DNA of 64,000 nt from the IMG/VR virus record IMGVR_UViG_3300033149_003715, positions 62,001-126,000 of that record, one strand, 5' to 3'. The stretch is from a virus. How positions within the stretch are numbered: the first letter of the stretch is position 1; each line of letters starts with the position of its first letter. Made by a program: the position numbers and the translations under genes. Positions 11,812 through 63,815 of the stretch are shown in pieces. The notes under the pieces are model-generated. The model had not been told where the DNA came from and did no database searches. It saw nothing but the letters and a program-made list of their open reading frames with translations.

Positions 11812-11841
11812 ATTATAATCTTAAATAGTTATTTTTGACAA
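11812..11841 (-). promoter_or_regulatory. sigma70-like promoter for leftward replication operon
   Basis: On the minus strand: -35 TTGTCA (11841-11836), 18 bp spacer, -10 TATAAT (11817-11812). It is about 35 bp before the FmdB-like start and just downstream of conserved non-coding element E1. Expected to drive the genes from 11.8 kb to DnaE. Confidence 0.6.
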
Positions 11842-11866: not shown

Positions 11867-12011
11867 ATAGCCTCCAGAATCTTACCGTTAATATTCTATA
11901 CAGCGAAAATAAACACGCATTTCAAAATAGATATATTATCACTAGTAGCGGGTATGGGTCAAAAACAATGTTTTTTACGTAACTTTAGGATTGGTAAGGA
12001 GTTATATTTTT
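11867..12011. repeat. conserved non-coding element E1, copy A
   Basis: About 145 bp between the RNR stop and the promoter at 11.84 kb, clearly similar along its whole length to 52468-52613. Shared blocks include GAATCTTACC, AATATTCTATACAGC and TTTTTTACGTAA. A short stem (TAACT ... AGTTA on the + strand) keeps pairing although its bases differ from copy B (TAAGTC ... GACTTA), a compensatory change. No protein frame is preserved on the gene strand. Probably a structured RNA or cis element; its strand is unresolved. Confidence 0.6.
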
Positions 12012-12012
12012 T

Positions 12013-15000
12013 TCATCTAATTTCACAGGCTTTACCAGAACATTCGGATGTAGCATCAAAATTGGTATTATCCTGTTCCTCAATCATTTTGGTATAATCT
12101 ACTGCTATTAATTTTTCTTGAATGTCACAATATAATTTCCAGTTGTGTACATCTTTTAGGCAATATGTTAATTTTTTATAATTACCATCAAAATATTTTT
12201 CGGCAAATTTTTTAGCTTTTTCAATAAATCTCATTTTATTAGAAGCAGTAAGAAGTTGAGCATGTTTAATACCATTACTAAATATACCATTGCTTAATTT
12301 AGTACCAAATTGACTATCTAATAAAGCATCACATGCTGCCCATAAATTATTATCAAAGGCGTGTAATCCTAATTCAATGAGTCCAGAACACCAAATAGCA
12401 GCATCTCCATATTCTCTAATTATTTCTCTTGAATTTAAAACAGAAGTAAATGGTGCTTGTGGAAAATCTTTGTCACAAGTGGTAGAAACAAGTGTTATTC
12501 CCGCAAGACTGTCTTTATGATCATAAATATATTTTGCTACATCATCCCATTCATGGGGTAACACTACAATCGTATTCGACACGTTATGGGTTAACCAGGG
12601 TTTTATACACAACAATGGATTTTTACCATATTCTACCCAATTTTCTTGTGTACTTTGAACAATTTTCAGCATTTCGATAGCTGGTAGTTGATTTTTAGTT
12701 TTTGCACCATCTGGTATTTCTATAGGAAAACGAATAACTTGATCTGTATCTGTTGCCGAATTTAAACTTGGTTCACATGCCTGTGGATTATGTTGTTTGA
12801 AAAACTGAAACGATGTTTCTAAATGATTAGCTTGTACTGTACGCAAAAATCTTTTAGAATGGTGTGGTGATATGCTAGATGAGGTACCCAAAAAACATCC
12901 AGAATTACCATCTGGCTTGATCAACGTTGTGCGAGCAGCAGCCCCAATATTAATTCTCTTGGAAATATCTTCATTTGTATCTCGTATAATATGAGCACCT
13001 TTTTGTTGTATTTGTGGGTTAAGTGTAATTTCAACGTTTTCCATCATACCAGTCATTGATACTCCAATTAAATATTCTTGTTCAATAATTTTTTGAGATA
13101 TTTTACCAAGATATCCAGCATCAGTAAAACCAGCTTGTAGTGTTCCTATAATTGCTGCTGCTTTACAACGATTATAAAAATCTTCTTCATTTCGCAAATT
13201 ACTACAATTAATAGTGCTTAAATTACATACTGCCCAACCGGAATACTGTCTATATCTTGGGTACATGCCTACTTCACCACATGGGTTGATAACCATTTCC
13301 GTTGAATCCGTCCACAAAAACCCTGGATCGCCAAATTCTTTCGTATATTGAATAATTTTTTCAAAATCTTTAAACGTTGTAGAATCTCTTAAAAGAACAA
13401 TTGAATTGTTTGCTCGTGCTCTTTGTGGATTTTCCTTATACCATTGACCAGTCTTACACTTTATCATTTCTTCGTCGTTGTGACTAAATAAACTTAAATA
13501 TGATGAGTTATGTGTAAGCACTCCATCAGCATAAAAACAATGATTTTTTTCTACCTCAAGATCGTATACATCTTTTATGATATTAGTTTCTTCAACTTTT
13601 TGCACTATGGCAGGAATGAAATTATTTATACCTAGTTTTTGTGCTTGTGTGTATGAAATGTAATTTTTATCACCCCAAATTTTACACTTGTCTTTACTTG
13701 TTGTAGCTAATGTGCGAGGAAATACCAATTCATCTTCTATTTTATTCCATTTATAGATAGTATAATACATTGAAGCTCTAACACAATACTTTTTAAGTAA
13801 TTTAGCAACTTTGTCATCAAACACAGGAGAAACTGTTCTAACTGTATATTTGGTAAGTTTATTTTCCTTATTTGGGTATTGTGTACTTAATTTTGTTGGA
13901 ATACCTAAAGATGAATATAAAATTTGAATATCCCGAGCAAAAGAATGATATCTTGTAGATACTAAACATAATTGTTTATGTTGTCTACTTGTTTGATGAT
14001 ATATTTGATCACTTGCATCTAATACTCCAGCCAAAAACATCAATTTAATCTTCGGTTTTGCCTCAAAAATACATTGTGGTACTACAATTGTTTGACTAGG
14101 TTGCTTAAAGTGAGTTAAAAAATATTCAGCGACTTGATATTGTTCATATTCCTGTATATGTTTCTTTGTATATATTGAATCATCAGTTAAAATATATCCA
14201 AATAGCCATAATGTGTCTTTATTGAGTTTTATTTTTGGTAACTTAAATTTTCGACCACGGCATACATCTTTATTTAAAATTAAGGTATGTTGTGGTTGTA
14301 GTTGAGATGTTGGTATCCACTGAATATCTCCATACATATTTTTTGCTACTGCCCACACATGTTCTTGCGTAGAATATAATTCCCCCAAATTAGTAGTAAT
14401 CTTAATAAGCTTCCTTTTTCCGTTGTACCATTTATTTGTTACTTTTCGGTATCCATTATTTGTTTTTACCAAATCCCCGATTTTAACATCTTGAATAAGT
14501 TTATATCCATATTTCGTATAAATTTTAGTATTTTTTGGTAAACATCGTCTTTGTCCACCACTTAACACCATATCTGAAATATAGCATATAATATCGTGAG
14601 CGTCGATTGGTTTTAGTTTTTTTTGGTTATTTGTTATACACCTGTCTAACAAATTTTGAATATTTTCCAAGGCTTTTTTTAATGGTGCTGGTCCGGGGGC
14701 TTTTCCAGTACCAGAACTTAAATACGATCCTTCTGGTCTAATGTGGGAAAAATCAAATTTAACATTACACATATAATAGTCTGGGAATACTGGATCTTCA
14801 AAATATGATGAAAGCAAAACCCCAACAGCATCTGCCCATCCCTCAATAGTATCTGGAATAATATATGTTTTTTCTTTAATTTTAGATTTATCTGCTATAT
14901 CTTGGGGGAGTTTAGCAAATTCTGGTAATTGTTTGATATGATGTTTTTGTATAGAAATACCACAACCAGCACCAACTAACAACATCCACGCAATTTCCTG

Positions 15001-15327
15001 AAAAACTCTTAATCTATCACAGTATGAAGCACTACAATTATAACAACGCATATTTTTCTTGAGCATTGATTGTCCGGCATGTTGTAAACATCTTTGACTA
15101 CCCAATACTCTTTTTTGTTTCATTAAACGATATGCCCATTTAATTTCTGTTTTTAATTTTGGATCTTGTTCAAAAAATGGAGCATATTTTACCAACATCA
15201 TATCAAGTACACGTGCTATTGCTTCCTCCCAAGTTTCACGACGTTTTTTGTCTGGTAACCAACGAGCATATTTAGATACAAAAGTGTATTTTTGCAATTC
15301 CTTTAAGGGTGTAAGAGGTTTGGTCAT
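12013..15327 (-). CDS. class II (B12-dependent) ribonucleotide reductase containing an intein
   Basis: 1104 codons; after removal of the intein (residues 262-607) the protein is 758 aa, close to monomeric RTPR. The start YARWLPDKKRRETWEEAIARV is RTPR-like. The thiyl-radical site is N681-P-C683-G-E685, and the C-terminal redox pair is C1096-x4-C1101 (ECSGKAC), as in Lactobacillus RTPR. It reduces ribonucleotides using adenosylcobalamin, so the infected cell must supply B12. No separate activator or small subunit gene is seen. SD AGGA precedes the ATG. Supplies dNTPs to the replisome downstream. Confidence 0.92.
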   Translation of the reverse strand: MTKPLTPLKELQKYTFVSKYARWLPDKKRRETWEEAIARVLDMMLVKYAPFFEQDPKLKTEIKWAYRLMKQKRVLGSQRCLQHAGQSMLKKNMRCYNCSASYCDRLRVFQEIAWMLLVGAGCGISIQKHHIKQLPEFAKLPQDIADKSKIKEKTYIIPDTIEGWADAVGVLLSSYFEDPVFPDYYMCNVKFDFSHIRPEGSYLSSGTGKAPGPAPLKKALENIQNLLDRCITNNQKKLKPIDAHDIICYISDMVLSGGQRRCLPKNTKIYTKYGYKLIQDVKIGDLVKTNNGYRKVTNKWYNGKRKLIKITTNLGELYSTQEHVWAVAKNMYGDIQWIPTSQLQPQHTLILNKDVCRGRKFKLPKIKLNKDTLWLFGYILTDDSIYTKKHIQEYEQYQVAEYFLTHFKQPSQTIVVPQCIFEAKPKIKLMFLAGVLDASDQIYHQTSRQHKQLCLVSTRYHSFARDIQILYSSLGIPTKLSTQYPNKENKLTKYTVRTVSPVFDDKVAKLLKKYCVRASMYYTIYKWNKIEDELVFPRTLATTSKDKCKIWGDKNYISYTQAQKLGINNFIPAIVQKVEETNIIKDVYDLEVEKNHCFYADGVLTHNSSYLSLFSHNDEEMIKCKTGQWYKENPQRARANNSIVLLRDSTTFKDFEKIIQYTKEFGDPGFLWTDSTEMVINPCGEVGMYPRYRQYSGWAVCNLSTINCSNLRNEEDFYNRCKAAAIIGTLQAGFTDAGYLGKISQKIIEQEYLIGVSMTGMMENVEITLNPQIQQKGAHIIRDTNEDISKRINIGAAARTTLIKPDGNSGCFLGTSSSISPHHSKRFLRTVQANHLETSFQFFKQHNPQACEPSLNSATDTDQVIRFPIEIPDGAKTKNQLPAIEMLKIVQSTQENWVEYGKNPLLCIKPWLTHNVSNTIVVLPHEWDDVAKYIYDHKDSLAGITLVSTTCDKDFPQAPFTSVLNSREIIREYGDAAIWCSGLIELGLHAFDNNLWAACDALLDSQFGTKLSNGIFSNGIKHAQLLTASNKMRFIEKAKKFAEKYFDGNYKKLTYCLKDVHNWKLYCDIQEKLIAVDYTKMIEEQDNTNFDATSECSGKACEIR
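13507..14544 (-). mobile_element. intein with degenerate LAGLIDADG endonuclease, in RNR
   Basis: 346 aa in-frame insertion (residues 262-607). Block A begins CLPKNTKIYT with the splicing Cys; block B-like LGELYSTQEHVWAV has the penultimate-type His; block F is VYDLEVEKNHCFYADG; block G ends VLTHN and is followed by Ser+1. So splicing residues look intact. The two LAGLIDADG motifs are LFGYILTDDS (acidic residue kept) and FLAGVLDASD (Ser at the usual Asp position), hinting that homing activity is weakened or lost. The insertion lies after GGQRR, before SSYLSL of the reductase. Confidence 0.92.
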
Positions 15328-16207: not shown

Positions 16208-16882
16208 TCAATCATCCCATACGGGTGTAAATAGATAATTTAAGGCAGGAGAAAAAGCTAAATCACCGGGTTTTGTATAAGAATCTGCTAAATTTTTTAC
16301 AAGATCAAAATTGTGAACATTAAAACAATATGCAATTGATGTACTACATACCGGAGCTACTACATTGTATGATCTGTCGTCAGTAACTTTGTTTATATTA
16401 TAGAATAACCGTAATCCTGGAATATAATTTTGTATAAATCTTAATATTCGCTTTAAACCATATGGCAAACCTGTAAGTTGTCTCATAGTATCTGTAATTG
16501 ATTTATTTTTAAGATATAACATTCTTTTTGAAAAAAAATTATATTTAGGGTCATACGTGTATCTTGGAAAAGATGAAGATGGTCGATAAATATCAATAAG
16601 TCCAGAGTTATTTTTAACTTCTCTGTCGAAGTTTTTAATAATACCACCGGCACCAACATTAAATTCAATAAGTTCTAATATTGGTGATAAACTATTTGCT
16701 TCTATAGTTTTTATATTACCATTATGCCATGACAAAAGAGCAGCATGACTATATGGACTTCTAGTAAATTTTTGAACAATTTTAGCAAAAAGATTCTTAC
16801 TACGCCATAATGTTATATCAGCTTCCTCGATTAGGTGGCGAACTTGAGAATATGGTACAAATATACGATCTGAAGATTTCAT
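16208..16882 (-). CDS. YiiX-like permuted papain-fold (NlpC/P60 superfamily) hydrolase
   Basis: 224 aa. Order of catalytic elements is permuted as in YiiX/LRAT-like enzymes: His first (SPYSHAALL, H46), then an acidic residue (TIEANS), and the Cys late (VCSTSIAYCF, C179) followed by TKPGDLAFSP. These enzymes cut amide or ester bonds in peptidoglycan peptides or lipids. Encoded next to a membrane-anchored coiled-coil protein, which suggests a cell-envelope or lysis function, but activity is inferred. TGA stop. Confidence 0.78.
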   Translation of the reverse strand: MKSSDRIFVPYSQVRHLIEEADITLWRSKNLFAKIVQKFTRSPYSHAALLSWHNGNIKTIEANSLSPILELIEFNVGAGGIIKNFDREVKNNSGLIDIYRPSSSFPRYTYDPKYNFFSKRMLYLKNKSITDTMRQLTGLPYGLKRILRFIQNYIPGLRLFYNINKVTDDRSYNVVAPVCSTSIAYCFNVHNFDLVKNLADSYTKPGDLAFSPALNYLFTPVWDD

Positions 16883-26754: not shown

Positions 26755-26882
26755 TTCAATTATCCTTTTCTAAATTAAGATTTATGTTACTCTTTATATA
26801 TATACACAAAAAATATTATTTCTTAACAAACTCATTAAAGTTCAATAACACTAATTAACCAAAAAATATACTTTTTATCCCA

Positions 26883-44721: not shown

Positions 44722-44811
44722 TTGTACTTTACACAATGTGCCATATGAAGATAAAGAAGCCAAATTTTATGTATTCGTCCCATCAATATTTAGGTTAACA
44801 ATAAAATGAAT

Positions 44812-45008
44812 GGCCAATAAGTAAAATTATCAAATATTGTTAAGTTTCTCAAACATACCTTTTTCTTACTGGTTAGTCTAACCTTAATTTTTCATCTTCC
44901 CTACAAAAGTTTATAAAGGGGGGAAAGTTATATGATGGTAGATGATTTCACGATTGCCGACAATCTTTTGGTAGTTTTGCGTTTTAGTTCTCTTCAATAA
45001 AGAATACG
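44812..45008. repeat. conserved non-coding element E2, copy A
   Basis: About 197 bp, similar throughout to 52757-52948. Shared blocks: GGCCA-TAAGTAAAA, ATACCTTTTTCT, GGTTAGTCTAAC, AAAGTT, GTAGTTTT-CGT. Both frames are stop-rich on each strand, so it is not coding. It lies between a strong minus-strand promoter (45077-45105) and the gene at 44721, so it is probably a transcribed leader RNA. Hairpin potential includes CTTCCC/GGGGAAAG and GATTG/CAATC. Confidence 0.6.
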
Positions 45009-45220: not shown

Positions 45221-46123
45221 TCATTTTATATTGTACATTCTTCCCTTACTTGTCTTTAGAACATACCCCTTGTTAACCAAAAATGGCTCAATAATATTTT
45301 CTATTGTGTAACGGTCAATTTTTGTCATTTCCATTAATGGTTTTAATCCAACAGGACGCTTTATTTTCAGTAGACATGAAAGATATAATTTATCATTAGT
45401 AGTTAATCCGTTCTTATCTACCCCTTTTAGTTTAAGAGCAAATTGAACAGTTTTTTCATCAACTAATCGTACAGATTGGCTAACTATATAATCTCTAATC
45501 CAAATTAAATATGTATTCAAAATACGTGGCGTACCACGTGCAATTTTTGCTATATGTTTAATGCAATTGTGTGGCATATTAATATTAAGCTTTGATAAAT
45601 GCAATTGTGCCAATGTAGTCAACTCATCCACCGAATACAATTGTAAATGTTCTTGTATGGGAAATCTGTCAATCAATGGTAAATTTAAACTACCAATCTG
45701 AGTAGAACATGCTATGCAAGTAAATTTTGGCAAATCTATAACAATTGCTTCTTTGTCTATTTTATTAGCAACTAAATTAAGTTTAAAATCTTCCAATACT
45801 GTTAATAGTAAATCTTGACACCGCCTATTAAGGCAATGTATTTCGTCTGCAATCAAAATGTCTTGATATTGTAATCTAACTAAATATGGTAATAATTGTT
45901 TAGGATTGGTAACATTTGCACAGTTAACAACTATAGGAGTTTTGTTAAACTCACGACTAATTGCTAACGCTATAGTTGTTTTACCTAAACCTGGTCCACG
46001 GGACCCTAATAATATATGAGGCAGTATATCTTGCCTTTTTTGAGAAGATTTAATGTGGATTTTCAATCTAGTAAGTACATTTGATTGCCCTATGATATCA
46101 GACAATGATGTTGGTCTTAACAT
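45221..46123 (-). CDS. ruvB: RuvB-like Holliday junction helicase
   Basis: 300 aa AAA+ ATPase. LRPTSLSDIIGQSNVLTRL is the RuvB opening; Walker A GPGLGKTT (43-50), Walker B ILIADEIHCL, sensor 1 IACSTQ, sensor 2 ARGTPRI, and a C-terminal winged helix ending GYVLKTSKGRMYNI. Drives branch migration of recombination intermediates. No RuvA or RuvC is recognised nearby, but the next gene may supply the RuvA contact. Confidence 0.9.
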   Translation of the reverse strand: MLRPTSLSDIIGQSNVLTRLKIHIKSSQKRQDILPHILLGSRGPGLGKTTIALAISREFNKTPIVVNCANVTNPKQLLPYLVRLQYQDILIADEIHCLNRRCQDLLLTVLEDFKLNLVANKIDKEAIVIDLPKFTCIACSTQIGSLNLPLIDRFPIQEHLQLYSVDELTTLAQLHLSKLNINMPHNCIKHIAKIARGTPRILNTYLIWIRDYIVSQSVRLVDEKTVQFALKLKGVDKNGLTTNDKLYLSCLLKIKRPVGLKPLMEMTKIDRYTIENIIEPFLVNKGYVLKTSKGRMYNIK

Positions 46124-49635: not shown

Positions 49636-49900
49636 TATTCTATCCTTTTAATTAATTTTACCGCTTTAGCTGCAACAGTACCTTTAGGAATACATACAAT
49701 ACCACCGTAATCTATTACTTTTTTCTTTTGTTTCTTTTTGTATAAAATTTCTATTAGAGACTCTAAATCAAAGGTAAATGGTATTTTTCTAAATCTACCT
49801 TTACCCTATAGGTAATAGCAGCTTCTCGTATACTATGCTCGTAATATGTAGAACATACTGACTTCATTTCCTGCGTAACAACTTTATAATAGATTTTCAT
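49635..49900 (-). pseudogene. decayed family-1 paralogue
   Basis: Starts MKIYYKVVTQEMKSVCSTYY and ends IPKGTVAAKAVKLIKRIE, the family-1 ends, but the middle is deleted and the two parts are in different frames, the switch lying near the GATTTAGAG stretch at about 49765. Explains the 280 bp gap between 49.63 and 49.92 kb. Confidence 0.8.
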
Positions 49901-49914
49901 AATTATTCACTTAA

Positions 49915-50313
49915 TTAGCAGTTCAAGTATACTCGTTTTAATAGTTTAACTGCGGATACAAACACTGTTCCTTTTGGTACAGCCTTTTTTTCAAAGAACT
50001 TTTTATGTTGTTTTTGTTTTTTTCTTATCAAGTTCCATTTTCTTAAAAATACTGATGCTGAATGTATACTACCAATATAAGGTACAAACACACTTGAACA
50101 AGAAGGATTCTCTATCATACAATTATAAACATGTGATCCAAAATAACAAAATTTACGTGCATCTTTTAAATTATTAAAGACCATTAATTTTGTACCCTCA
50201 ACCTTAGGATATACCCACTCTCCAATCTCGTATTTAACTACAAATTCTTTCGGCAAATGTTTATAAAGATACGATTTTAGATCAAATGAAACAACTTTAT
50301 AATAGGTTTTCAT
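49915..50313 (-). CDS. family-1 paralogue
   Basis: 132 aa. MKTYYKVVSFDLKSYLYKHLP, VVKYEIGEWVYPKVEGTKLMVF, YNCMIENPSCSSVFVPYIG and KKAVPKGTVFVSAVKLLKRVY (each in part). Closest to the copy at 51331-51750. Role unknown. Confidence 0.78.
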   Translation of the reverse strand: MKTYYKVVSFDLKSYLYKHLPKEFVVKYEIGEWVYPKVEGTKLMVFNNLKDARKFCYFGSHVYNCMIENPSCSSVFVPYIGSIHSASVFLRKWNLIRKKQKQHKKFFEKKAVPKGTVFVSAVKLLKRVYLNC

Positions 50314-50315
50314 AG

Positions 50316-50657
50316 TTATTCACCTAAAATTTGGGGGGAATTTTGAAGACCGTGAGAACGATCTAACTGTCCAAGTACGTTAGCAGTAGCAGTTACAATA
50401 CCATTTCCAAATTGTTGGTTGTACGCATTTTTAATATCTTCATTAGGTTCTAATTGAAATAAGATATGATTTTTGGATATTACGACTTTTTTTTCGTTGG
50501 AGAATGGCATCCACGGTCTCATTGCTATACCTATTTTACCAGTTGCATCTTGACCAACAGACATAGCTACCGGATTTATTAAACATACTTGATCTTTACA
50601 TGATTCGATTTGTGCTATAATTTCTTCACCATAAATTAATTTAATGTATTTAACCAT
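50316..50657 (-). CDS. small beta-barrel-like phage protein
   Basis: 113 aa. VKYIKLIYGEEIIAQIESC, then NPVAMSVGQ, IAMRPWMPFSNEKKVVISKNHI is a pattern common in phages, suggesting a small Sm/SH3-like barrel; the fold is inferred. AAGGAG SD. Two bases before a family-1 gene. Confidence 0.7.
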   Translation of the reverse strand: MVKYIKLIYGEEIIAQIESCKDQVCLINPVAMSVGQDATGKIGIAMRPWMPFSNEKKVVISKNHILFQLEPNEDIKNAYNQQFGNGIVTATANVLGQLDRSHGLQNSPQILGE

Positions 50658-50668
50658 AGTTCAACTCC

Positions 50669-51064
50669 TTAACTACTTTGTAACAACCATTTTTTAAATG
50701 GTTCATAGGGGTTTTTGGTACTATACCATAACTGTGTACAATTAAAATCTAGTAACAATTTTTGGCAACATTTACATGGTTTAGACATGCCCAACATACC
50801 ATTGGCCATGATCCTAATGTTAACAAATGTAAATTTAGGTAACAATGAGACAGGATATGGAAAATTTTGAATAGCTTTTAATTCAGAATGAATGTTATTA
50901 AATCTATAACCATATCGACCTGCCAGCGGATGTGTCTTAAAAGATAAATTATACCCTACGGAAATCACTCTTTTCTTAAGCAAAATAAAAGTAAAATGTT
51001 TTTGACGTGCATCGGGCAAATCTATCATTTTATAGGATAGTTTGATCAGTTTGTCAAATTTCAT
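50669..51064 (-). CDS. cytidine-deaminase-like zinc protein
   Basis: 131 aa with NNIHSELKAI (HxE) and SKPCKCCQKLL (PCxxC), the zinc and proton-shuttle motifs of the cytidine/deoxycytidylate deaminase fold. Different from the dCMP deaminase at 15.6 kb. Substrate may be a nucleoside, a nucleotide or RNA. Confidence 0.8.
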   Translation of the reverse strand: MKFDKLIKLSYKMIDLPDARQKHFTFILLKKRVISVGYNLSFKTHPLAGRYGYRFNNIHSELKAIQNFPYPVSLLPKFTFVNIRIMANGMLGMSKPCKCCQKLLLDFNCTQLWYSTKNPYEPFKKWLLQSS

Positions 51065-51081
51065 AACACTAAGTTTTATGA

Positions 51082-51330
51082 TTATGAAGGATTAAGATCG
51101 TAATATGGACAGTTTCGATTATTTGCCAACAAGTGTTTACGAAAATCTTGTGTAATTTGATGTTCCCATATATTTTTAAAACTGCTTACATCAAAAATAT
51201 TAATGCCAAATTTCCATTCCTTTATTCCTTCACAAAAAGAACATGCGTAACAATTTCCTAAACAGTTAATATACATTGAAAACAATGTAGATTCACATGG
51301 TTCACATAATTGTTGTTTTTGTATAAAATC
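51082..51330 (-). CDS. orphan SPASM-like domain, probable gene fragment
   Basis: About 80 codons open from just after the TAA of the family-1 gene, in the same frame; no ATG at the start (the first ATG is SMYINC, after a TTG). Sequence QQLCEPCESTLFSMYINCLG, then NCYACSFCEG and NRNCPYYDLNP matches the C-terminal SPASM-type cluster domain of phage radical SAM proteins I know. The radical SAM core is absent, so it is probably a remnant. Confidence 0.6.
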   Translation of the reverse strand, partial: DFIQKQQLCEPCESTLFSMYINCLGNCYACSFCEGIKEWKFGINIFDVSSFKNIWEHQITQDFRKHLLANNRNCPYYDLNPS

Positions 51331-51750
51331 TTAATTGTTCAATTCTGTTAATTGTAGTGATTTGTCTACTGGTTCTAGTAATTTAATTCCGTCCACAAAT
51401 ACTGTTCCTTTTGGTACAGCTTTTCTTTTAAAGAACTTTTTATGCTGTTTTTGTTTTTTTTGTAAGGAAAACCACTTCTCCAAAAACTGTGATGGAAAAT
51501 GTAGATTACCAACATGAGGCACAAATACACCTGAATAAGAAGGATTCTTGACTAAACAAGTATAAATATAGTTAATATCAAAACAGAAGTTATATGCATT
51601 TCTAAGACTATTAAAAACCATTAGCTTCGTACCTTTAATTTTAGGGTATACCCATTTTCCAACTTTGTATTGTACAACAAACTCTTTCGGTAAAAGATAA
51701 TAGATTCGTGATTTTAATCTATATGAAACAACTTTGTAATAAATTTTCAT
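51331..51750 (-). CDS. family-1 paralogue
   Basis: 139 aa from ATG 51750 (TTG at 51756 is less likely). KIYYKVVSYRLKSRIYYLLP, VVQYKVGKWVYPKIKGTKLMV, YTCLVKNPSYSGVFVPHVG, KAVPKGTVFVDGIKLLEPV. Very close to 49915-50313, so a recent duplicate. Confidence 0.78.
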   Translation of the reverse strand: MKIYYKVVSYRLKSRIYYLLPKEFVVQYKVGKWVYPKIKGTKLMVFNSLRNAYNFCFDINYIYTCLVKNPSYSGVFVPHVGNLHFPSQFLEKWFSLQKKQKQHKKFFKRKAVPKGTVFVDGIKLLEPVDKSLQLTELNN

Positions 51751-51835
51751 TCTCAAAATTTCCCAAGCGGAATGTTTACTATTAACATATCATTTAAAAA
51801 TACCTTGATACATTACCATTGAAATAAAACAATTA

Positions 51836-52051
51836 TTAAGTAGGGCTCGAATTTGCTTTAATTGTTTCTAAATGATATGTATTATCTTCTGTCCAAATAC
51901 TAACAGACATACCCCAAAGTTTTGATAGGAGTGATGCATACTGTACAGCTTCGTGATAACAAGAAAACTTCCTATTTTCGTCAAACATAGGCATACTTTT
52001 ATCACGATACTTTTTATAGTTTTTTCCGTAAAAATTGTATACTTCGGCCAC
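51836..52051 (-). CDS. unknown 71 aa protein
   Basis: GTG start with AAAGGAG 6 nt upstream. AEVYNFYGKNYKKYRDKSMPM then SCYHEAVQYASLLSKLWGMSVSI. The second half resembles a small alpha/beta module. Function unknown. Confidence 0.62.
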   Translation of the reverse strand: MAEVYNFYGKNYKKYRDKSMPMFDENRKFSCYHEAVQYASLLSKLWGMSVSIWTEDNTYHLETIKANSSPT

Positions 52052-52077
52052 GATAATCTCCTTTATATCACTTATAT

Positions 52078-52263
52078 TTAATTAAGTGTACGCGAGATTT
52101 CTTTTAGTAGTTGTTCTGACCTATCAATTTTTCCATTCGCTTGGTTGATTTTAATAGCTTGACCCTGTTTAACAGCTTGCTTTCTGGTTGGAAAACATTT
52201 ACCAGATTGACCGAATTTCCATCCTAATTTTCCATTAGGAAGTTTGCATCGCATAATAGGCAT
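52078..52263 (-). CDS. small conserved phage protein
   Basis: 61 aa. MPIMRCKLPNGKLGWKFGQSG then KCFPTRKQAVKQGQAIKINQA is a widely seen phage mini-protein pattern, sometimes near structural genes. First gene after the 780 bp non-coding block; its leader contains an AGGTAG/CTACCT hairpin near 52305-52324. Confidence 0.75.
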   Translation of the reverse strand: MPIMRCKLPNGKLGWKFGQSGKCFPTRKQAVKQGQAIKINQANGKIDRSEQLLKEISRTLN

Positions 52264-52467
52264 TTCTCATTCATTTTACAAAATTCGTAGAAATTGAATC
52301 TTGAAGGTAGCCTTTCATCTACCTAAAAATAAATACATTACTATGTTAATTAACTTATAATACACCCTTTAAGATTTTCACGAAGCTTTCAAGGCTTACC
52401 TTATAAGTTTGTCGTCACTAAACTATCCTGTTTACCCACTACTACCTTGGTTCTGATTGGCACCAAA

Positions 52468-52613
52468 ATAGCTCCCAGAATCTTACCATCAATATTCTAT
52501 ACAGCAAAAATGAATAACTTAAGACTAATAGGTATCAAACTACCAATAGAAGCAATGGGCCAAAAACTATCTTTTTTACGTAAGTCTAAAACTGACAAGG
52601 ACTTATATTTTTA
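52468..52613. repeat. conserved non-coding element E1, copy B
   Basis: Partner of 11867-12011. Within a 780 bp gap with no supported gene on the minus strand. The + strand has a 64-codon frame here, but copy A has no matching open frame from an ATG, so coding is unlikely. Stem TAAGTC/GACTTA covaries with TAACT/AGTTA of copy A. Confidence 0.6.
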
Positions 52614-52756
52614 TCAGCTATTATTATGTAAAACTTTGTAAAAAATTCAAAAAAATCCCAGAATTATTGGCCATATTTCTGAGTTCAGCTATATAATAAA
52701 ATAGATACTATTTGTGAAGAATTGAGTTAATTATTTAAAGGCCGTATATTACGAAG

Positions 52757-52948
52757 GGCCAGTAAGTAAAAATACTAAATTTTGGATGTCTTAAGTATAC
52801 CTTTTTCTATTGGTTAGTCTAACTTAAGTTTTTTAGTTTTCCCCGAAAAGTTCGTAAAGGGAAGAAAGTTTAATGACTAAAAAAGATCTCACAATAACCA
52901 ATAACCTTTAGTAGTTTTACGTGTTTGGTTGTACCTCAGTAAAGTACG
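52757..52948. repeat. conserved non-coding element E2, copy B
   Basis: Partner of 44812-45008, lying 143 bp from E1 copy B. Contains GGTTAGTCTAAC and a + strand self-complement TATTGGTTA/TAACCAATA. No sigma70-like promoter as good as at 45.1 kb is visible upstream, so it may be transcribed from the gene at 53397. Gap stretches 52264-52467 and 52949-53043 hold only AT-rich DNA with small hairpins. Confidence 0.6.
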
Positions 52949-53043
52949 GAACCCCAGAAATAAAGATTCAAGAATTGTTATTAATAGTTAAATAGGTTTC
53001 TATATGATTCTATTGTTACTATAGATTCTAATTGTATAATACA

Positions 53044-53397
53044 TTAATTAGACACAATAACAATTAAATTATTTTCTTCTGGATAAATACAACATTTTTT
53101 ATTCAGTGTGATTTTATTTAAAATTTTACATGTACGTGTAAGATTGTTATATGGCTTAGTTGGTAATTTAAGAAATGGAACCTCTATAAGGTTTTTTATG
53201 TACTGTTTACTAAATCTGCGATAACAAGATATTTCAAAATTCCATCCTTCTATATAATTTGCTGTTGTATTGGTAATATATATTAATCTATGGGTACCTG
53301 GTTTTGATCCAGAATAATACTCAAAGCTAACAACATTACCTTTAAATAGAATCATAGTAGATAATATAGTATCAAGATTGGATTGTTTTTGATTCAT
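53044..53397 (-). CDS. unknown 117 aa protein
   Basis: Beta-rich start (FKGNVVSFEYYSGSKPGTHRLIYI) suggests a small barrel; then YCRRF-like basic part and a C-terminal CCIYPEENNLIVIV strand. No SD within normal distance. Function unknown. Confidence 0.66.
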   Translation of the reverse strand: MNQKQSNLDTILSTMILFKGNVVSFEYYSGSKPGTHRLIYITNTTANYIEGWNFEISCYRRFSKQYIKNLIEVPFLKLPTKPYNNLTRTCKILNKITLNKKCCIYPEENNLIVIVSN

Positions 53398-53421
53398 TGT
53401 TATGATTTGTTAGAGTAAACT

Positions 53422-53461
53422 CCAACCCCGAGTGGAATAATTAATATAAACTCGGGGCTGG
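53422..53461. other. GC-rich hairpin between genes
   Basis: CCCCGAGT / ACTCGGGG with flanking CCA/TGG extends to about 10 bp, loop 16 nt, conspicuous in AT-rich DNA. It follows the HTH gene (stop 53477) on the minus strand, but no T-run follows in that direction, so it may stabilise the mRNA end or act as a weak terminator. Confidence 0.5.
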
Positions 53462-53476
53462 ATATGAATTTTTTAT

Positions 53477-53803
53477 TTATTTAGTATTACTGTTTATATC
53501 AATACCATACTTTTTACTTAATTCTTCCAAATTACACGAATCTGGAAGATCTAATGATTCTGCTAATTCTTTTAGGTTTAAAGTAATTTCTTTTGACTTC
53601 TTACGTCTTGGAAGTTTTTTGAGTTCTATTCCTTTCTTTCTGTATGACTTGATTTTTTGTTGTAATGAAGACGGTTTGATTTTTAACAATTCTGCTGCAT
53701 CTTCAACAGTTTCTGATGTTTGTACAGCAAAAATAAATTTAACTAAATCTTGTGGTACTCCATTGTCTAATGCTTGTTTAATCGCGTTTTGTACTTCTGA
53801 CAT
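53477..53803 (-). CDS. HTH (Fis-like) DNA-binding protein
   Basis: 108 aa. TVEDAAELLKIKPSSLQQKIKSY is a Fis/HTH_8-type helix-turn-helix, followed by a basic patch LKKLPRRKKSKE and a second small helical pair. Likely a regulator. GGAGG SD. Confidence 0.75.
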   Translation of the reverse strand: MSEVQNAIKQALDNGVPQDLVKFIFAVQTSETVEDAAELLKIKPSSLQQKIKSYRKKGIELKKLPRRKKSKEITLNLKELAESLDLPDSCNLEELSKKYGIDINSNTK

Positions 53804-53867
53804 AATTCCTCCAATTTCATATTAATTCTTATGATAACCCTACACTAATTAATATTTTACCTCCTTT

Positions 53868-54020
53868 CTAATTGTAAAATTCTTTTAAAAATCGTGTTTG
53901 ATCTTGACGTGTTTTTTGCCTTCTAGGTTTACGTGGTGATTTTGGTATTTTATTTTCTATATTTTTTTTGTTACGTTTGTTGCGGTATTTTTGTTTGTTT
54001 TCGTACTTATTTAAACGCAT
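53868..54020 (-). CDS. 50 aa very basic mini-protein
   Basis: Short ORF, Lys/Arg/Asn/Gln-rich (NKQKYRNKRNKKN ... SPRKPRRQKTRQDQ) ending RFLKEFYN. It fits neatly between neighbours but has no clear SD; low-complexity composition makes it uncertain. Could bind nucleic acid. Confidence 0.45.
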   Translation of the reverse strand: MRLNKYENKQKYRNKRNKKNIENKIPKSPRKPRRQKTRQDQTRFLKEFYN

Positions 54021-54035
54021 TACTATATTTATCTA

Positions 54036-54416
54036 TTAAAATTTAGATGGTGGTAAGACCATTATCTTATCTGTGATAATACAACAGTACATTTTACCAT
54101 CAATGTCTTCTATACCTTCTGCAATAATCTTTGTGAAAAGTACCTGACATATGATTTCATCAGATTCTTTGTATCTTTGTGCTGCTTTTTTGCTTGTCCA
54201 TACGTGAAACCCACATTCATATAATTTATTATCTTCTGCTCGGATTTTATTATAACCTGATTGATTTTTTAGCCATTTCAGAAATGGTTTATTGTCATTA
54301 TACAATGTCGAGAAAGTTTTATCTGTTTTACTTAATTCGACAACTTTATATCCTGTATAATATGTTCCATCTTTTTTGATTTTTGTTTTAGTAGATGTAA
54401 CTTTCGAGAGACACAT
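54036..54416 (-). CDS. family-2 (MCLTKVT) paralogue
   Basis: 126 aa from ATG 54416 with AAGGAG 7 nt upstream (a longer frame to 54506 overlaps the neighbour). Family pattern: MCLSKVTS start, YTGYKVVELSKT, PFLKWLK, GFHVWTSKKAAQRYK, VLFTKIIAEGIEDI, CIITDKIMVLPP. Function unknown. Six copies lie between 54.0 and 57.6 kb. Confidence 0.78.
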   Translation of the reverse strand: MCLSKVTSTKTKIKKDGTYYTGYKVVELSKTDKTFSTLYNDNKPFLKWLKNQSGYNKIRAEDNKLYECGFHVWTSKKAAQRYKESDEIICQVLFTKIIAEGIEDIDGKMYCCIITDKIMVLPPSKF

Positions 54417-54420
54417 TTTT

Positions 54421-54834
54421 TTACTCCTTTTTAAGTACTTTATAGTTTGGAGGTAAAACAAAGATTTTGTCGGTAACAACGCAACGATAATTATAATCAA
54501 TTTCATGTTTATTAAGATTATAGATGTCTTCTATACCTTCCGCAATAATTTTTGTGAAGAGTACATAACATATTATTTCTCCATCTTGTTTGTATTTTTG
54601 TGCTGCTTTTTTGCTTGTCCATACGTGAAATCCATTTTTGTATAATTTGTTATCTTTTGCTTCGATTTCATTATTTGATCGACTCTTTAGCCATTTTAAG
54701 AATGATCTATTAACATTGTATAATGATGAAAAAGTTTTACCTGTTTTGCTTAAAACAACTACTTTGTATCCTATATAACAGGATCCATCTTTTTTAGTTT
54801 TTGTTTTAGTAGATGTAACTCTTGTAAGACACAT
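54421..54834 (-). CDS. family-2 paralogue
   Basis: 137 aa. MCLTRVTSTKTKTKKDGSCY, GYKVVVLSKTGKTF, GFHVWTSKKAAQKYKQDGE, TKIIAEGIEDIYNLNKHEI, CVVTDKIFVLPP. Same SD and leader bases as the copy at 54416, and it is nearest to 57116-57613. Confidence 0.78.
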   Translation of the reverse strand: MCLTRVTSTKTKTKKDGSCYIGYKVVVLSKTGKTFSSLYNVNRSFLKWLKSRSNNEIEAKDNKLYKNGFHVWTSKKAAQKYKQDGEIICYVLFTKIIAEGIEDIYNLNKHEIDYNYRCVVTDKIFVLPPNYKVLKKE

Positions 54835-54865
54835 TTTTTACTCCTTTTTAAGTACTTTATAGTAA

Positions 54866-55252
54866 TTAGTATCCAATTGGTGGCAAAACATACATCTGAT
54901 CGGTAACAACGCAACGATATTCTTTATTACCAATATTTTCTATACCTTCCGCAATAATTTTTGTGAAGAGTACTTGGCATATTACCTCATCAGGATGATC
55001 TTTCCATTCTTCTGCTGCTTTTTTGTTTGTCCATATATGAAATCCAAGTTTATACAATTTACTATCATCTGCTATTATATAACCTGTTGCTTTTTTTGCT
55101 CTATTTAACCATTTCAAGAATGGTCTGTTTTTATTGTAAAATGTCGAAAAAGTTTTACCTGTTTCACTTAATTCTACTACTTTGTATCCTATATAGTACA
55201 ATCCATCTTTTTTTATTTTTTCTTTAGCTGATATAACCTTTGTAAGACACAT
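54866..55252 (-). CDS. family-2 paralogue
   Basis: 128 aa. MCLTKVISAKEKIKKDGLYY, GYKVVELSETGKTF, LGFHIWTNKKAAEEWKD, VLFTKIIAEGIENI, CVVTDQMYVLPP. AGGAG SD. Directly follows the DUF932 gene. Confidence 0.78.
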   Translation of the reverse strand: MCLTKVISAKEKIKKDGLYYIGYKVVELSETGKTFSTFYNKNRPFLKWLNRAKKATGYIIADDSKLYKLGFHIWTNKKAAEEWKDHPDEVICQVLFTKIIAEGIENIGNKEYRCVVTDQMYVLPPIGY

Positions 55253-55263
55253 TTTTATTTCTC

Positions 55264-56238
55264 CTAATTAGCCATTTCTAGTGCAATTGTTAATGCTTTG
55301 CGATTAATTTGAGCATTTTGCCCAAACCATAAACTATTTAAACGACGATCCTGATTTTTTCCAAAATTATAATTTAAATATTCGTTTACTGCGTTATATG
55401 CACCCCAATATGTACCTTTGACATGTGGAATATTAATACCTATACCTGTTTCCATTTTTTGTGTGATTGCATCAATTTTGTTACTTAGTCTTGTAGAAAG
55501 TTTATATTCTGGCTGTTCTGGATCAATACCTAAGACAACTTTAACATATTTTCTTAGATCGCGTTGGTTAATTGACTTGTTTGCCAAATATTTATATTGT
55601 TCTATGGTTGATTCAAAAGTAGCATTGAACGTATTAATAGTTTGTCTTACTTGTTCCAAATTGTATGTAAGTTGTGATGTATGACGAATCCTGATAGATT
55701 CACCGTGTTTTAGTGCCAACGACAAAGTATTCCAGCAAACAGTTCTAATAGGTGTAAGTGTAACCCGAACTGACATTGTGCCGTCGTGTGAATTTGAAAG
55801 CATTAAGTATTTTGCTATATCATCTCCTTTTACTACTTCAGAATTTATACCTTTAAGTTTAGCCATTACCCATACTTTAGTTCCACCACATAATGAACCT
55901 GCTGTTTCTAGTTCGCATGATCCTGAATCCAAAAACGGTTGAAACCATTCAAACGCTTCTATGTTTTGTAGTGGTGTGTATTGTGGGCCGACTATACCCA
56001 ATACATTATCTTTGTCTGTACGTACAACAGCTTTATGCTTGATTTCAGTAACTTGTTGTTGTAGGTAATGGTCAATTTTATCCGCTATAACCAAAGGTTT
56101 TAGTGCAACTGACCAATCCAAGCCGGCTGCAATTATACCACGTTTAACGTCAATTCTTTCATTTTGCGGGATAATATTACCTTGTCTGTGCCAAGGAACT
56201 AACCCGCGAGACATCATTGTTTCAACAAAACTAGACAT
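55264..56238 (-). CDS. DUF932 protein
   Basis: 324 aa. The full DUF932 pattern is present: GLDWSVALKPL, HKAVVRTDKDNVLGIVG, YTPLQNIEAFEWFQPFLDSG, TLTPIRTVCWNTL and GTYWGAYNAVNEYLNY. Widespread in phages and plasmids, function unproven. Embedded in the family-2 array, starting inside the end of the next copy. AAGGAG SD. Confidence 0.9.
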   Translation of the reverse strand: MSSFVETMMSRGLVPWHRQGNIIPQNERIDVKRGIIAAGLDWSVALKPLVIADKIDHYLQQQVTEIKHKAVVRTDKDNVLGIVGPQYTPLQNIEAFEWFQPFLDSGSCELETAGSLCGGTKVWVMAKLKGINSEVVKGDDIAKYLMLSNSHDGTMSVRVTLTPIRTVCWNTLSLALKHGESIRIRHTSQLTYNLEQVRQTINTFNATFESTIEQYKYLANKSINQRDLRKYVKVVLGIDPEQPEYKLSTRLSNKIDAITQKMETGIGINIPHVKGTYWGAYNAVNEYLNYNFGKNQDRRLNSLWFGQNAQINRKALTIALEMAN

Positions 56239-56629
56239 TGCTTTCTCCTTGATTTTCGTTGTGAACTACGTACATTTTTTTGGCAACTACGCATCCTTTG
56301 TCTTCTTGGTATCCTTCTGCTACCACTCTACGGTAATATACTTTTACAACAATATCGTTATCAATATAAGGTTCTAAGTATCTTATTGCATCTTTTTTTT
56401 CTTTAAAAATATGAAATCCTGCTGGATATTGTTTACCATCGTCTGCTGTGATTTTGGTGGTTGGTCTTTTGTAGCACACAATCCATTTGTTAAATGGTTT
56501 TTCTTTTCTAAACCATAAAAACTGAAACTTTTTATAATTACTTGATATAACAACAACTTTATATCCAACACCATATTTTTTTGGAGGAAAGTTTTTCTTT
56601 TCAAGAGATGTAATTTTTGTAAGACACAT
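56231..56629 (-). CDS. family-2 paralogue, subtype b
   Basis: 132 aa. MCLTKITSLEKKNFPPKKYG, GYKVVVISSNYKKFQFLWF, PFNKWIVCYKRPTTKI, YPAGFHIFKEKKDAIRYLE, VVAKKMYVV. Forms a subtype with 56660-57100 in which the N-terminal linker is KNFP rather than KTKTKKDG. Confidence 0.78.
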   Translation of the reverse strand: MCLTKITSLEKKNFPPKKYGVGYKVVVISSNYKKFQFLWFRKEKPFNKWIVCYKRPTTKITADDGKQYPAGFHIFKEKKDAIRYLEPYIDNDIVVKVYYRRVVAEGYQEDKGCVVAKKMYVVHNENQGESNV

Positions 56630-56659
56630 AATAGTTTTTCTGTTTTCTGTTCTCTGGAT

Positions 56660-57100
56660 TTATACGTATAAGAATGGTTTATTAAGATTGATGATTGTTG
56701 TTTTGCGTAATTCTACCCCTTTATTATTTTTATCGTAAACTACGTATATTTTTTTAGCGATTACGCATTTAGCTCCATCTTGAAATCCTCGTGCTACTAT
56801 TCTGCGATATCGCACTTGTACAACAATTTCGTCGAAATGAGGTGTTTTATATTGTTCTGCATCCGATCTTTTTTCAAAAATATGAAATCCGGCTGGATAA
56901 TTCCAACCATTTAATGCCATAATTTTTGTATTCGGTCTTTTATAACATATAATCCACTTATTAAACGGTCTTTCTCCCTCAAACCATAAAAATTGAAATT
57001 TTCCCTTTTTAGTTGATAAGCGAATTACCTTATACCCGATACCATACTGCTTTCGCGGAAAATTTTCTTTTCTGACTAATGTAACTTTTGTAAGACACAC
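56660..57100 (-). CDS. family-2 paralogue, subtype b
   Basis: 146 aa from a GTG codon (MCLTKVTLVRKENFPRKQYG). GYKVIRLSTKKGKFQFLWF, PFNKWIICYKRPNTKI, YPAGFHIFEKRSDAEQY, CVIAKKIYVVYD and a short extra tail. AGGA SD. Confidence 0.76.
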   Translation of the reverse strand: MCLTKVTLVRKENFPRKQYGIGYKVIRLSTKKGKFQFLWFEGERPFNKWIICYKRPNTKIMALNGWNYPAGFHIFEKRSDAEQYKTPHFDEIVVQVRYRRIVARGFQDGAKCVIAKKIYVVYDKNNKGVELRKTTIINLNKPFLYV

Positions 57101-57115
57101 TTTTGTTTTTCCTAT

Positions 57116-57613
57116 TTATTTACTTTTAGATGGAGGTAAAACAAAAATTTTATCGGTAACAACGCAACGATAACCATGTTCAATTTCATGTTTATTAAGA
57201 TTATAGATGTCTTCTACACCCTCTGCAATAATTTTTGTGAAGAGTACTTGACATATTATTTCTCCATATCGTTTGTATCTTTGTGCTGCTTTTTTACTTG
57301 TCCATATGTGAAATCCATTTTTGTATAATTTGCCATCTTTTGCTTTAATTTCATCAACAGTTATATCCATATGTAGTCGATTTAATCCACTCTTTAGCCA
57401 TTTTAAGAATGGTTTATTAAGATTATATAATGATGAAAAAAAAGGTTTATCTGTTTTTATCCTATTTAACCATTTCAAGAATGGTCTGTGTTTGTTAAAA
57501 AATGTCGAAAAAGTTTTACCTGTTTTACTTAATTTTACTACTTTGTATCCTGTATAGTACAATCCGTCTTTTTTAGTTTTTGTTTTAGTAGATGTAACTC
57601 TTGTAAGATTCAT
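57116..57613 (-). CDS. family-2 paralogue with internal duplication
   Basis: 165 aa. Starts MNLTRVTSTKTKTKKDGLYY (MNL instead of MCL). The PFLKWL segment occurs twice (about residues 39-45 and 66-72, separated by KTDKPFFSSLYNLN), showing an in-frame internal duplication. Ends CVVTDKIFVLPP. AAGGAA SD. Confidence 0.78.
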   Translation of the reverse strand: MNLTRVTSTKTKTKKDGLYYTGYKVVKLSKTGKTFSTFFNKHRPFLKWLNRIKTDKPFFSSLYNLNKPFLKWLKSGLNRLHMDITVDEIKAKDGKLYKNGFHIWTSKKAAQRYKRYGEIICQVLFTKIIAEGVEDIYNLNKHEIEHGYRCVVTDKIFVLPPSKSK

Positions 57614-62552: not shown

Positions 62553-62728
62553 TACTGTTTCCTCAAAAGACTTTTTGGAAATTTCCAATAATACTCACAT
62601 TTTTTGGTTGATTTGTCATATGGTGGTGCAATAAAATATGATTGGTATTTACTTGGTTTAATTAAATATCGAAGACAACTTTCTTTGTGTGGACAATCTT
62701 TTCCATAACACATGGTAATATCAGGCAT
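62552..62728 (-). CDS. 58 aa Cys-containing phage mini-protein
   Basis: Found by direct translation. MPDITMCYGKDCPHKESCLR then SYFIAPPYDKSTKKCEYYW is a familiar small phage protein with four Cys (probable zinc site). GGAGG lies 9 nt before the ATG, and it is coupled to the RNA ligase through TAATG. Overlaps the stop of the family-1 gene by 8 nt. Confidence 0.8.
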   Translation of the reverse strand: MPDITMCYGKDCPHKESCLRYLIKPSKYQSYFIAPPYDKSTKKCEYYWKFPKSLLRKQ

Positions 62729-63146
62729 CTGTTTGTACCTCCATTTGATTACAAAAAATAATTTTAGTAAGTTTTACTGCTGAACAAAAAATTGTACCAC
62801 TCGGTGGAAACGCACATTTATCTAAAAACCTTTTGTTACATTTTTTTAGACGTAAAATATCTTTTAACCCTTCAAGATTTACGAAAATCAAGAAAATACC
62901 ATACTTTTTTGGATGTTTTGCTTGACATTCGCAAATAACAAATTCTTTAATATCATTATTAATTATAAAATGGTATACTTTTTTCAAATCATCAAAAACC
63001 ATTAAATCTGAGTCTTCAAATCCTGGGTTGGGGTATGTCCATTGATTCATATTATATTGGACTACTAATGGTTTTAGTTTTACATTTGGCGAATTAACAC
63101 AAATTGATTCAAGTGTTGGTGTTAAAATCTTGTAATACTTTTTCAT
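62721..63146 (-). CDS. family-1 paralogue
   Basis: 141 aa. KKYYKILTPTLESICVNSP, VQYNMNQWTYPNPGFEDSDL, VICECQAKHPKKYGIFL, PPSGTIFCSAVKLTKIIFC. Paired with the copy at 63405-63815 (same NPGFE-S-LMVFDDL block). AGGAG SD. Confidence 0.78.
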   Translation of the reverse strand: MKKYYKILTPTLESICVNSPNVKLKPLVVQYNMNQWTYPNPGFEDSDLMVFDDLKKVYHFIINNDIKEFVICECQAKHPKKYGIFLIFVNLEGLKDILRLKKCNKRFLDKCAFPPSGTIFCSAVKLTKIIFCNQMEVQTDA

Positions 63147-63186
63147 TTAATTGCTCCTGATTTTTTAACAATTTTGGTTAAGTGAT

Positions 63187-63360
63187 TTAGTTCCATATTC
63201 TTTTTAAGCGATATCCGCAATGTAAACAAAAATGTGCCCACCAGGATTGTTTTGTGCATTTATAACAGTAATATGCTCCACAATTTTTACACAAAAAGAA
63301 ACAGTGTAAAATACCTCGACATATACGTCCGCAATTAACACAACAAACTTTGGCAAACAT
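63187..63360 (-). CDS. 57 aa Cys-rich zinc mini-protein
   Basis: Found by direct translation. Eleven Cys in 57 residues, including CCVNCGRIC, LCKNCGAYYCYKC and FCLHCGYRLK: probably two or three zinc knuckles. AAGGA SD 7-8 nt upstream. Fills the 63.15-63.40 kb gap. Function unknown. Confidence 0.75.
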   Translation of the reverse strand: MFAKVCCVNCGRICRGILHCFFLCKNCGAYYCYKCTKQSWWAHFCLHCGYRLKRIWN

Positions 63361-63404
63361 GGTTTTGTCCTTTTAATATGGTATATTGGACGACTAATTT
63401 TTCT

Positions 63405-63815
63405 TTATTCTATGGTTCTACATTGAATAATTTTTGTAAGTCTTACCGCTGAACAAAAAATTGTACCTCGTGGTGGATATGTTTTTGTTAAGAACTTTTT
63501 CTTATTTTTCTTTTTACGTAAAATAACATTTAGTTCTGATATTAACATTAAGTGTAAGAAGATACCTATTTTTCGTGGATTTTTGACCTTACATTCACAA
63601 ACTGCATATTTTTGAAGATTATTAAAAGTTACAAATCCATGTACACTATCTAAGTCATCAAAAACCATTAGATTTGAGCCTTCAAATCCTGGATTTGGAT
63701 ACACCCATTGATTAATATGGTATTGAACAGCCAGTTTATCTTTTTCTTTATTATTCAACCATGTTGTACTGATTGACTTGAGATCTGGCGTGAGAACTTT
63801 GTAGTATTTTTTCAT
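63405..63815 (-). CDS. family-1 paralogue
   Basis: 136 aa from ATG 63815 (TTG at 63824 is the alternative). KKYYKVLTPDLKSISTTWL, VQYHINQWVYPNPGFEGSNL, AVCECKVKNPRKIGIFLHL, PPRGTIFCSAVRLTKII. A good type example of the family. Confidence 0.79.
   Translation of the reverse strand: MKKYYKVLTPDLKSISTTWLNNKEKDKLAVQYHINQWVYPNPGFEGSNLMVFDDLDSVHGFVTFNNLQKYAVCECKVKNPRKIGIFLHLMLISELNVILRKKKNKKKFLTKTYPPRGTIFCSAVRLTKIIQCRTIE

Follow-up and report, generated by a model that had tools for sequence, protein, structure and literature searches.

A repeated intergenic element of a phage genome, candidate for a small RNA or a regulatory cassette

Comparable elements known from phages

PeSLs are, as Arbiol and colleagues in 2010 and Comeau and colleagues in 2014 are said to have reported, composite promoter-terminator motifs of T4-type phages. 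These studies are cited in PMC4177764, PMC4503421 and PMC5931544. Like PeSLs, the element E1 described here is a short intergenic repeat with stem-loops, whose copies lie scattered among unrelated genes within a single phage genome. However, in this comparison, which is by description only, the copies of E1 share no promoter consensus, their orientation relative to the genes varies, the stems are weak and A+T-rich, and the phage is not T4-proper. The PeSL combination of an early promoter with a stem-loop, oriented like the genes and present at several intergenic sites, was not found for E1.

Small non-coding RNAs of phages have been reviewed (PMC12197685), and the Rfam families CfrI, PhotoRC-II and wcaG are described in T4-like cyanophages (PMC9964418). 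E1 resembles these RNAs in being short, phage-encoded and intergenic, and it is a candidate structured RNA. Unlike them, it matches none of the Rfam covariance models, even at E 3, it is found in one phage species only, and it is present in one genome as three diverged copies. Generally, intergenic repeats and small RNAs are known kinds of phage sequence, of which E1 is a new example. If transcribed, it would be a multi-copy phage small RNA, a class in which few paralogous families have been described; if not, it is still an example of intergenic DNA under patchy constraint, duplicated inside a single phage genome.

Copies of E1 and their distribution

The source record is a 144,173-bp uncultivated virus, of which we studied record positions 62,001-126,000 (64,000 nucleotides, hereafter the window). 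It contains genes for a DnaB-like helicase, primase, UvsX, terminase, major head protein and NAMPT, a gene set that identifies it as a tailed phage. The first 87 bases are repeated identically as the last 87, hence the record is probably complete. It opens with a 37-bp tandem repeat array (L007:1-131).

The repeat is real. Its two full copies in the window, c1 and c2 (Table 1), are identical at 111 of 153 nucleotides without any gap, and blastn aligns them with 74% identity over 159 columns (E 9.9e-20 for the window, E 4e-22 for the whole record). A full-length match in the same orientation had been proposed in the initial annotation and is confirmed; the extent given there, 11867-12011 and 52468-52613, does match, but both copies end approximately 8 nt later, in c1 over the stop codon of the ribonucleotide reductase (RNR) gene. 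All genes flanking c1 and c2 are on the - strand. The intein of the RNR has a homing-endonuclease-like part (Pfam Intein_splicing and Hom_end, below or near the cut-off), and this insert is absent from many relatives.

Table 1. Features of E1 and its surroundings, in window coordinates
Feature	Position	Strand	Description
E1 copy 1 (c1)	11867..12019	+	blastn/nhmmer match to c2; between RNR stop and promoter-like site of next gene
E1 copy 2 (c2)	52468..52620	+	blastn/nhmmer match to c1; within 780-bp gene-free gap 52264-53043
Class II (B12-type) RNR with intein	12013..15327	-	stop codon inside 3' end of c1
Promoter-like site TTGTCA-18-TATAAT	11812..11841	-	consensus match only (11/12); upstream of next gene, outside E1
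c1 5' hairpin domain	11870..11904	+	GC/GC closing pairs around AGAAT/ATTCT stem (11876-11897); consensus fold
c2 5' hairpin domain	52471..52505	+	GCT/AGC closing pairs around AGAAT/ATTCT stem (52477-52498); consensus fold
c1 small hairpin GATA-TAT-TATC	11930..11940	+	two-sided A-T to G-C change versus c2, blastn alignment
c2 small hairpin GGTA-TCAAAC-TACC	52531..52544	+	consensus fold
c1 3' hairpin GTAACTTT/GGAGTTAT	11979..12013	+	8 bp including G.U pairs; then T-run 12007-12013
c2 3' hairpin GTAAGTCT/GGACTTAT	52580..52612	+	8 bp; then T-run 52608-52612

A third, partial copy (c3) is located outside the window at record positions 137,527-137,608, approximately 23 kb past c2 and reversed. It was found in the record by a two-sequence profile (73 nt ungapped, E 8.8e-5), and its nhmmer score is 16.2 bits, whereas none of 40 shuffled genomes exceeded 10.4. 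It comprises only the half of E1 that is 5' on the window + strand, without the 3' half, and it is situated between two small - strand genes, to which its orientation is opposite to that of c1 and c2. The gene contexts of the three copies are unrelated: beside the RNR gene (c1), in the 780-bp gap (c2) and between the two small genes at 137.5 kb (c3). A covariance model of c1, c2 and c3 recovered exactly these three from the record; c3 was itself part of the model, hence its recovery is no independent proof. Searches with the profile and the covariance model yielded no further credible copy in this record or in approximately 40 related records. A 16-nt likeness between the flank of c1 and a gap near 142.6 kb was dropped, since it is a post hoc pattern and such matches are expected in 144 kb.

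Outside this record, c1 is carried by a 7.6-kb IMG/VR contig that is 99.93% identical over its length, and a search of IMG/VR with three patterns detected nothing besides it. No match was obtained in 50,697 phage records, nor in a pattern scan of GTDB genomes. Moreover, among 80 related IMG/VR loci, gathered by a helicase search, E1 is absent from the DNA of the loci and from the whole records behind approximately 40 of them. In approximately 30 relatives with an orthologous RNR, the next gene mostly begins within 25 nt after the RNR stop. Relatives with a 52-56% identical RNR mostly have a gap of 21-25 nt and no E1, which rules out an element of the RNR 3'-UTR. Since the RNR is joined directly to another gene in most relatives, c1 is lineage-specific, and its absence from relatives together with these short gaps indicates that E1 is young or fast-changing rather than a 3'-UTR feature of the RNR.

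Constraint, coding potential and folding

The substitutions between c1 and c2 are unevenly distributed along E1, with 5/44, 24/43 and 13/66 differences in successive blocks, and this clustering was reached in only 0.025% of the permutations (P 0.00025). Of these blocks, c3 retains the 5' one (31-32 of 44 positions). Such strong clustering argues for selective constraint, and the patchy conservation, with a first block common to c3, argues against simple decay. Hence, E1 has most likely been kept under selection in two blocks.

With respect to coding, the claim that the gene strand is non-coding was borne out, as every frame through E1 contains stops on this strand (2-9 per copy). Stop-codon recoding, in which a TAG or TGA decoded as an amino acid would open a gene-strand frame, was ruled out because all three stops end long genes. 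A conserved open reading frame, which had been named as evidence against the non-coding view, may exist: one + strand frame, ATA GCC TCC AGA ATC TTA (RILP.IFYTAK), is open in c1, c2 and c3, but the copies have no start codon in common, as c1 reaches its first ATG at codon 30 and c3 has only a TTG. A frame open throughout c1, c2 and c3 is expected by chance with a probability of approximately 0.005, and in c1 and c3 this one begins just after a stop, exactly at the edge of E1. The + strand reading frames terminate at unrelated places among the copies. Conservative substitutions are not in excess in this open frame (P 0.18 between c1 and c2, 0.08-0.11 with c3), no frame of E1 has a consistent significant excess of them or a synonymous bias, and searches of Pfam, PHROGs and phage DNA (tblastn) detected no protein relatives on either strand. 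The marks of a conserved protein-coding gene, a shared start and stop and synonymous-biased change, are absent from E1, which is probably non-coding; a coding function is possible but unlikely.

The evidence for folding is mixed. In the consensus fold of c1 and c2 on the + strand, with the blastn gaps, every one of the 23 pairs can form in c1 as well as in c2; 17 are unchanged, 4 differ on one side and 2 on both sides. Against four nulls that randomise substitutions, this fold reached P 0.005, 0.044, 0.003 and 0.004, the value of 0.044 coming from the null started from c2, while the gene strand was not better than chance (P 0.07-0.31); it must be mentioned that two strands and several alignments were tested, which calls for at least a twofold correction of these P values for the two copies. 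Furthermore, G.U pairs favour the + strand, because they hold the 3' hairpin of c1 and the 5' stem of c3 there only: the former has no stable fold on the gene strand, and the latter, AGAAT/ATTTT, contains a G.U pair when read on the + strand but an A.C mismatch on the opposite one. In c3 the small hairpin, GGTA-GTTTGA-TACC, has the stem of c2 with an inverted loop; both it and the 5' hairpin are recovered when c3 is folded by itself at minimum free energy (z -2.1). However, single c1 and c2 fold unremarkably (z +0.5, +0.8, -0.3 and +1.0), and the three-copy fold was highly significant only when gaps were placed by hand to match the hairpins; in an untuned MAFFT alignment it was not significant (P 0.09-0.24 on the + strand, 0.04-0.09 on the gene strand).

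The initial annotation had based its structured element on a compensatory change, TAACT/AGTTA versus TAAGT(C)/(G)ACTTA. This C-G to G-C swap is present between c1 and c2. Its value as evidence is within chance, since three stems, this one included, contain a covarying pair, whereas the null averages 1.0 (P 0.08) with one alignment and 2.1 (P 0.34) with another. E1 thus cautions that one compensatory pair in two copies does not show RNA structure. The AGAAT/ATTCT stem, listed there as two further hairpins, occurs in both copies but forms a single hairpin. Altogether, the proposal of a structured non-coding element agrees with the missing coding selection and with the two-copy fold of the + strand, but not with the ordinary folding of single copies or the loss of the three-copy signal under MAFFT. 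An RNA structure in E1 is suggested rather than demonstrated by these results.

With its T-run, the 3' hairpin of c1 is terminator-like on the + strand; the terminator scan did not list it, the stem being too A+T-rich. No gene-strand terminator at E1 and no shared promoter upstream of its copies on the + strand were found, and a promoter-like site inside c1 falls within the variable block. A T4-type late promoter at the edge of E1 was ruled out, because the T4-type late motif TATAAATA shows no enrichment upstream of genes in this genome.

Possible functions and genome setting

Most likely, E1 is a small lineage-specific RNA or a regulatory cassette that was duplicated within the phage. From the sequence we infer transcription, its strand, RNA folding and any regulatory action. 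Our main reading, to which we assign a probability of roughly 40%, is that a small RNA is made from the + strand of c1 and c2, the strand opposite to that of the adjacent genes. This candidate RNA would be approximately 150 nt long and may fold into a 5' hairpin domain; the full copies would add a 3' hairpin with a U-run behind it, at which transcription would end. E1 would have spread via duplication inside the genome, like many genes of this phage. The copies in three unrelated contexts, the clustered substitutions, the + strand fold and the pairs that exist only on this strand support this small RNA, whereas the ordinary single-copy folding, the MAFFT result, the lack of an Rfam match and of a promoter, and the truncated and reversed c3 weaken it. 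It is somewhat doubtful that E1 is the founding member of a new small-RNA family of phages, which would be antisense to the gene array and have several paralogues per genome, with diverged sequences around a kept 5' hairpin domain and terminator hairpin.

Some of these observations fit other explanations as well. E1 is strictly intergenic and at c1 lies upstream of a promoter-like site, and a 59-bp promoter-like segment and a second repeat pair exist in the same genome (see below), as would be expected if E1 were a duplicated regulatory DNA cassette with promoter, operator or terminator signals, similar in role to the PeSLs of T4-type phages; its hairpins would then be incidental or serve as terminators, and it would yield no stable small RNA. 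We consider this somewhat unlikely, since at c1 one promoter-like site falls beyond the repeat and another, inside c1, in the variable block, a terminator on the gene strand is missing, and the orientation to the genes is not constant, c3 being reversed. The truncation of c3, the many duplicated genes and intergenic stretches of the phage, and the relatives in which E1 is missing and the RNR is mostly joined directly to the next gene could also be explained by a decaying relic, i.e. fragments of duplicated intergenic or once-coding DNA with no present function; this is unlikely, because conservation is patchy and not uniform and includes the 5' block of c3. A small + strand protein or pseudogene, antisense to the genes, would account for the frame that is open in all three copies and for the beginning of this frame at the edge of E1 in c1 and c3, but it is quite improbable in view of the lacking excess of conservative substitutions, the missing common start codon, the unrelated frame ends and the absence of any Pfam or PHROG match. 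The small RNA is the reading that we put forward.

Many genes and intergenic stretches are duplicated in this phage genome. A 59-bp segment occurs with 100% identity at window positions 26794-26852 and record positions 16,681-16,739, upstream of two unrelated genes and in the same gene orientation; one of these genes is the one after the major head protein, and the segment resembles a promoter cassette copied not long ago. Another pair of intergenic repeats, 44808-45002 and 52753-52944, adjoins c2 and is 72% identical over 197 columns in the same orientation; it has no significant consensus fold (P 0.07 on the + strand, 0.55 on the - strand) and was not found in relatives. The 59-bp segment and this pair together indicate that intergenic cassettes move or duplicate in this genome. 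Furthermore, paralogous small-gene families are dense, both in tandem and dispersed, at window positions 49900-57600 and 62700-63800 and at L011:9100-14100, L011 being the piece that holds the record end; they include a nucleotidyltransferase-like family (L011:12189-14143). The window also contains a full-length gene for a RuvB-like Holliday junction helicase (45221-46123) with three RuvB Pfam domains.
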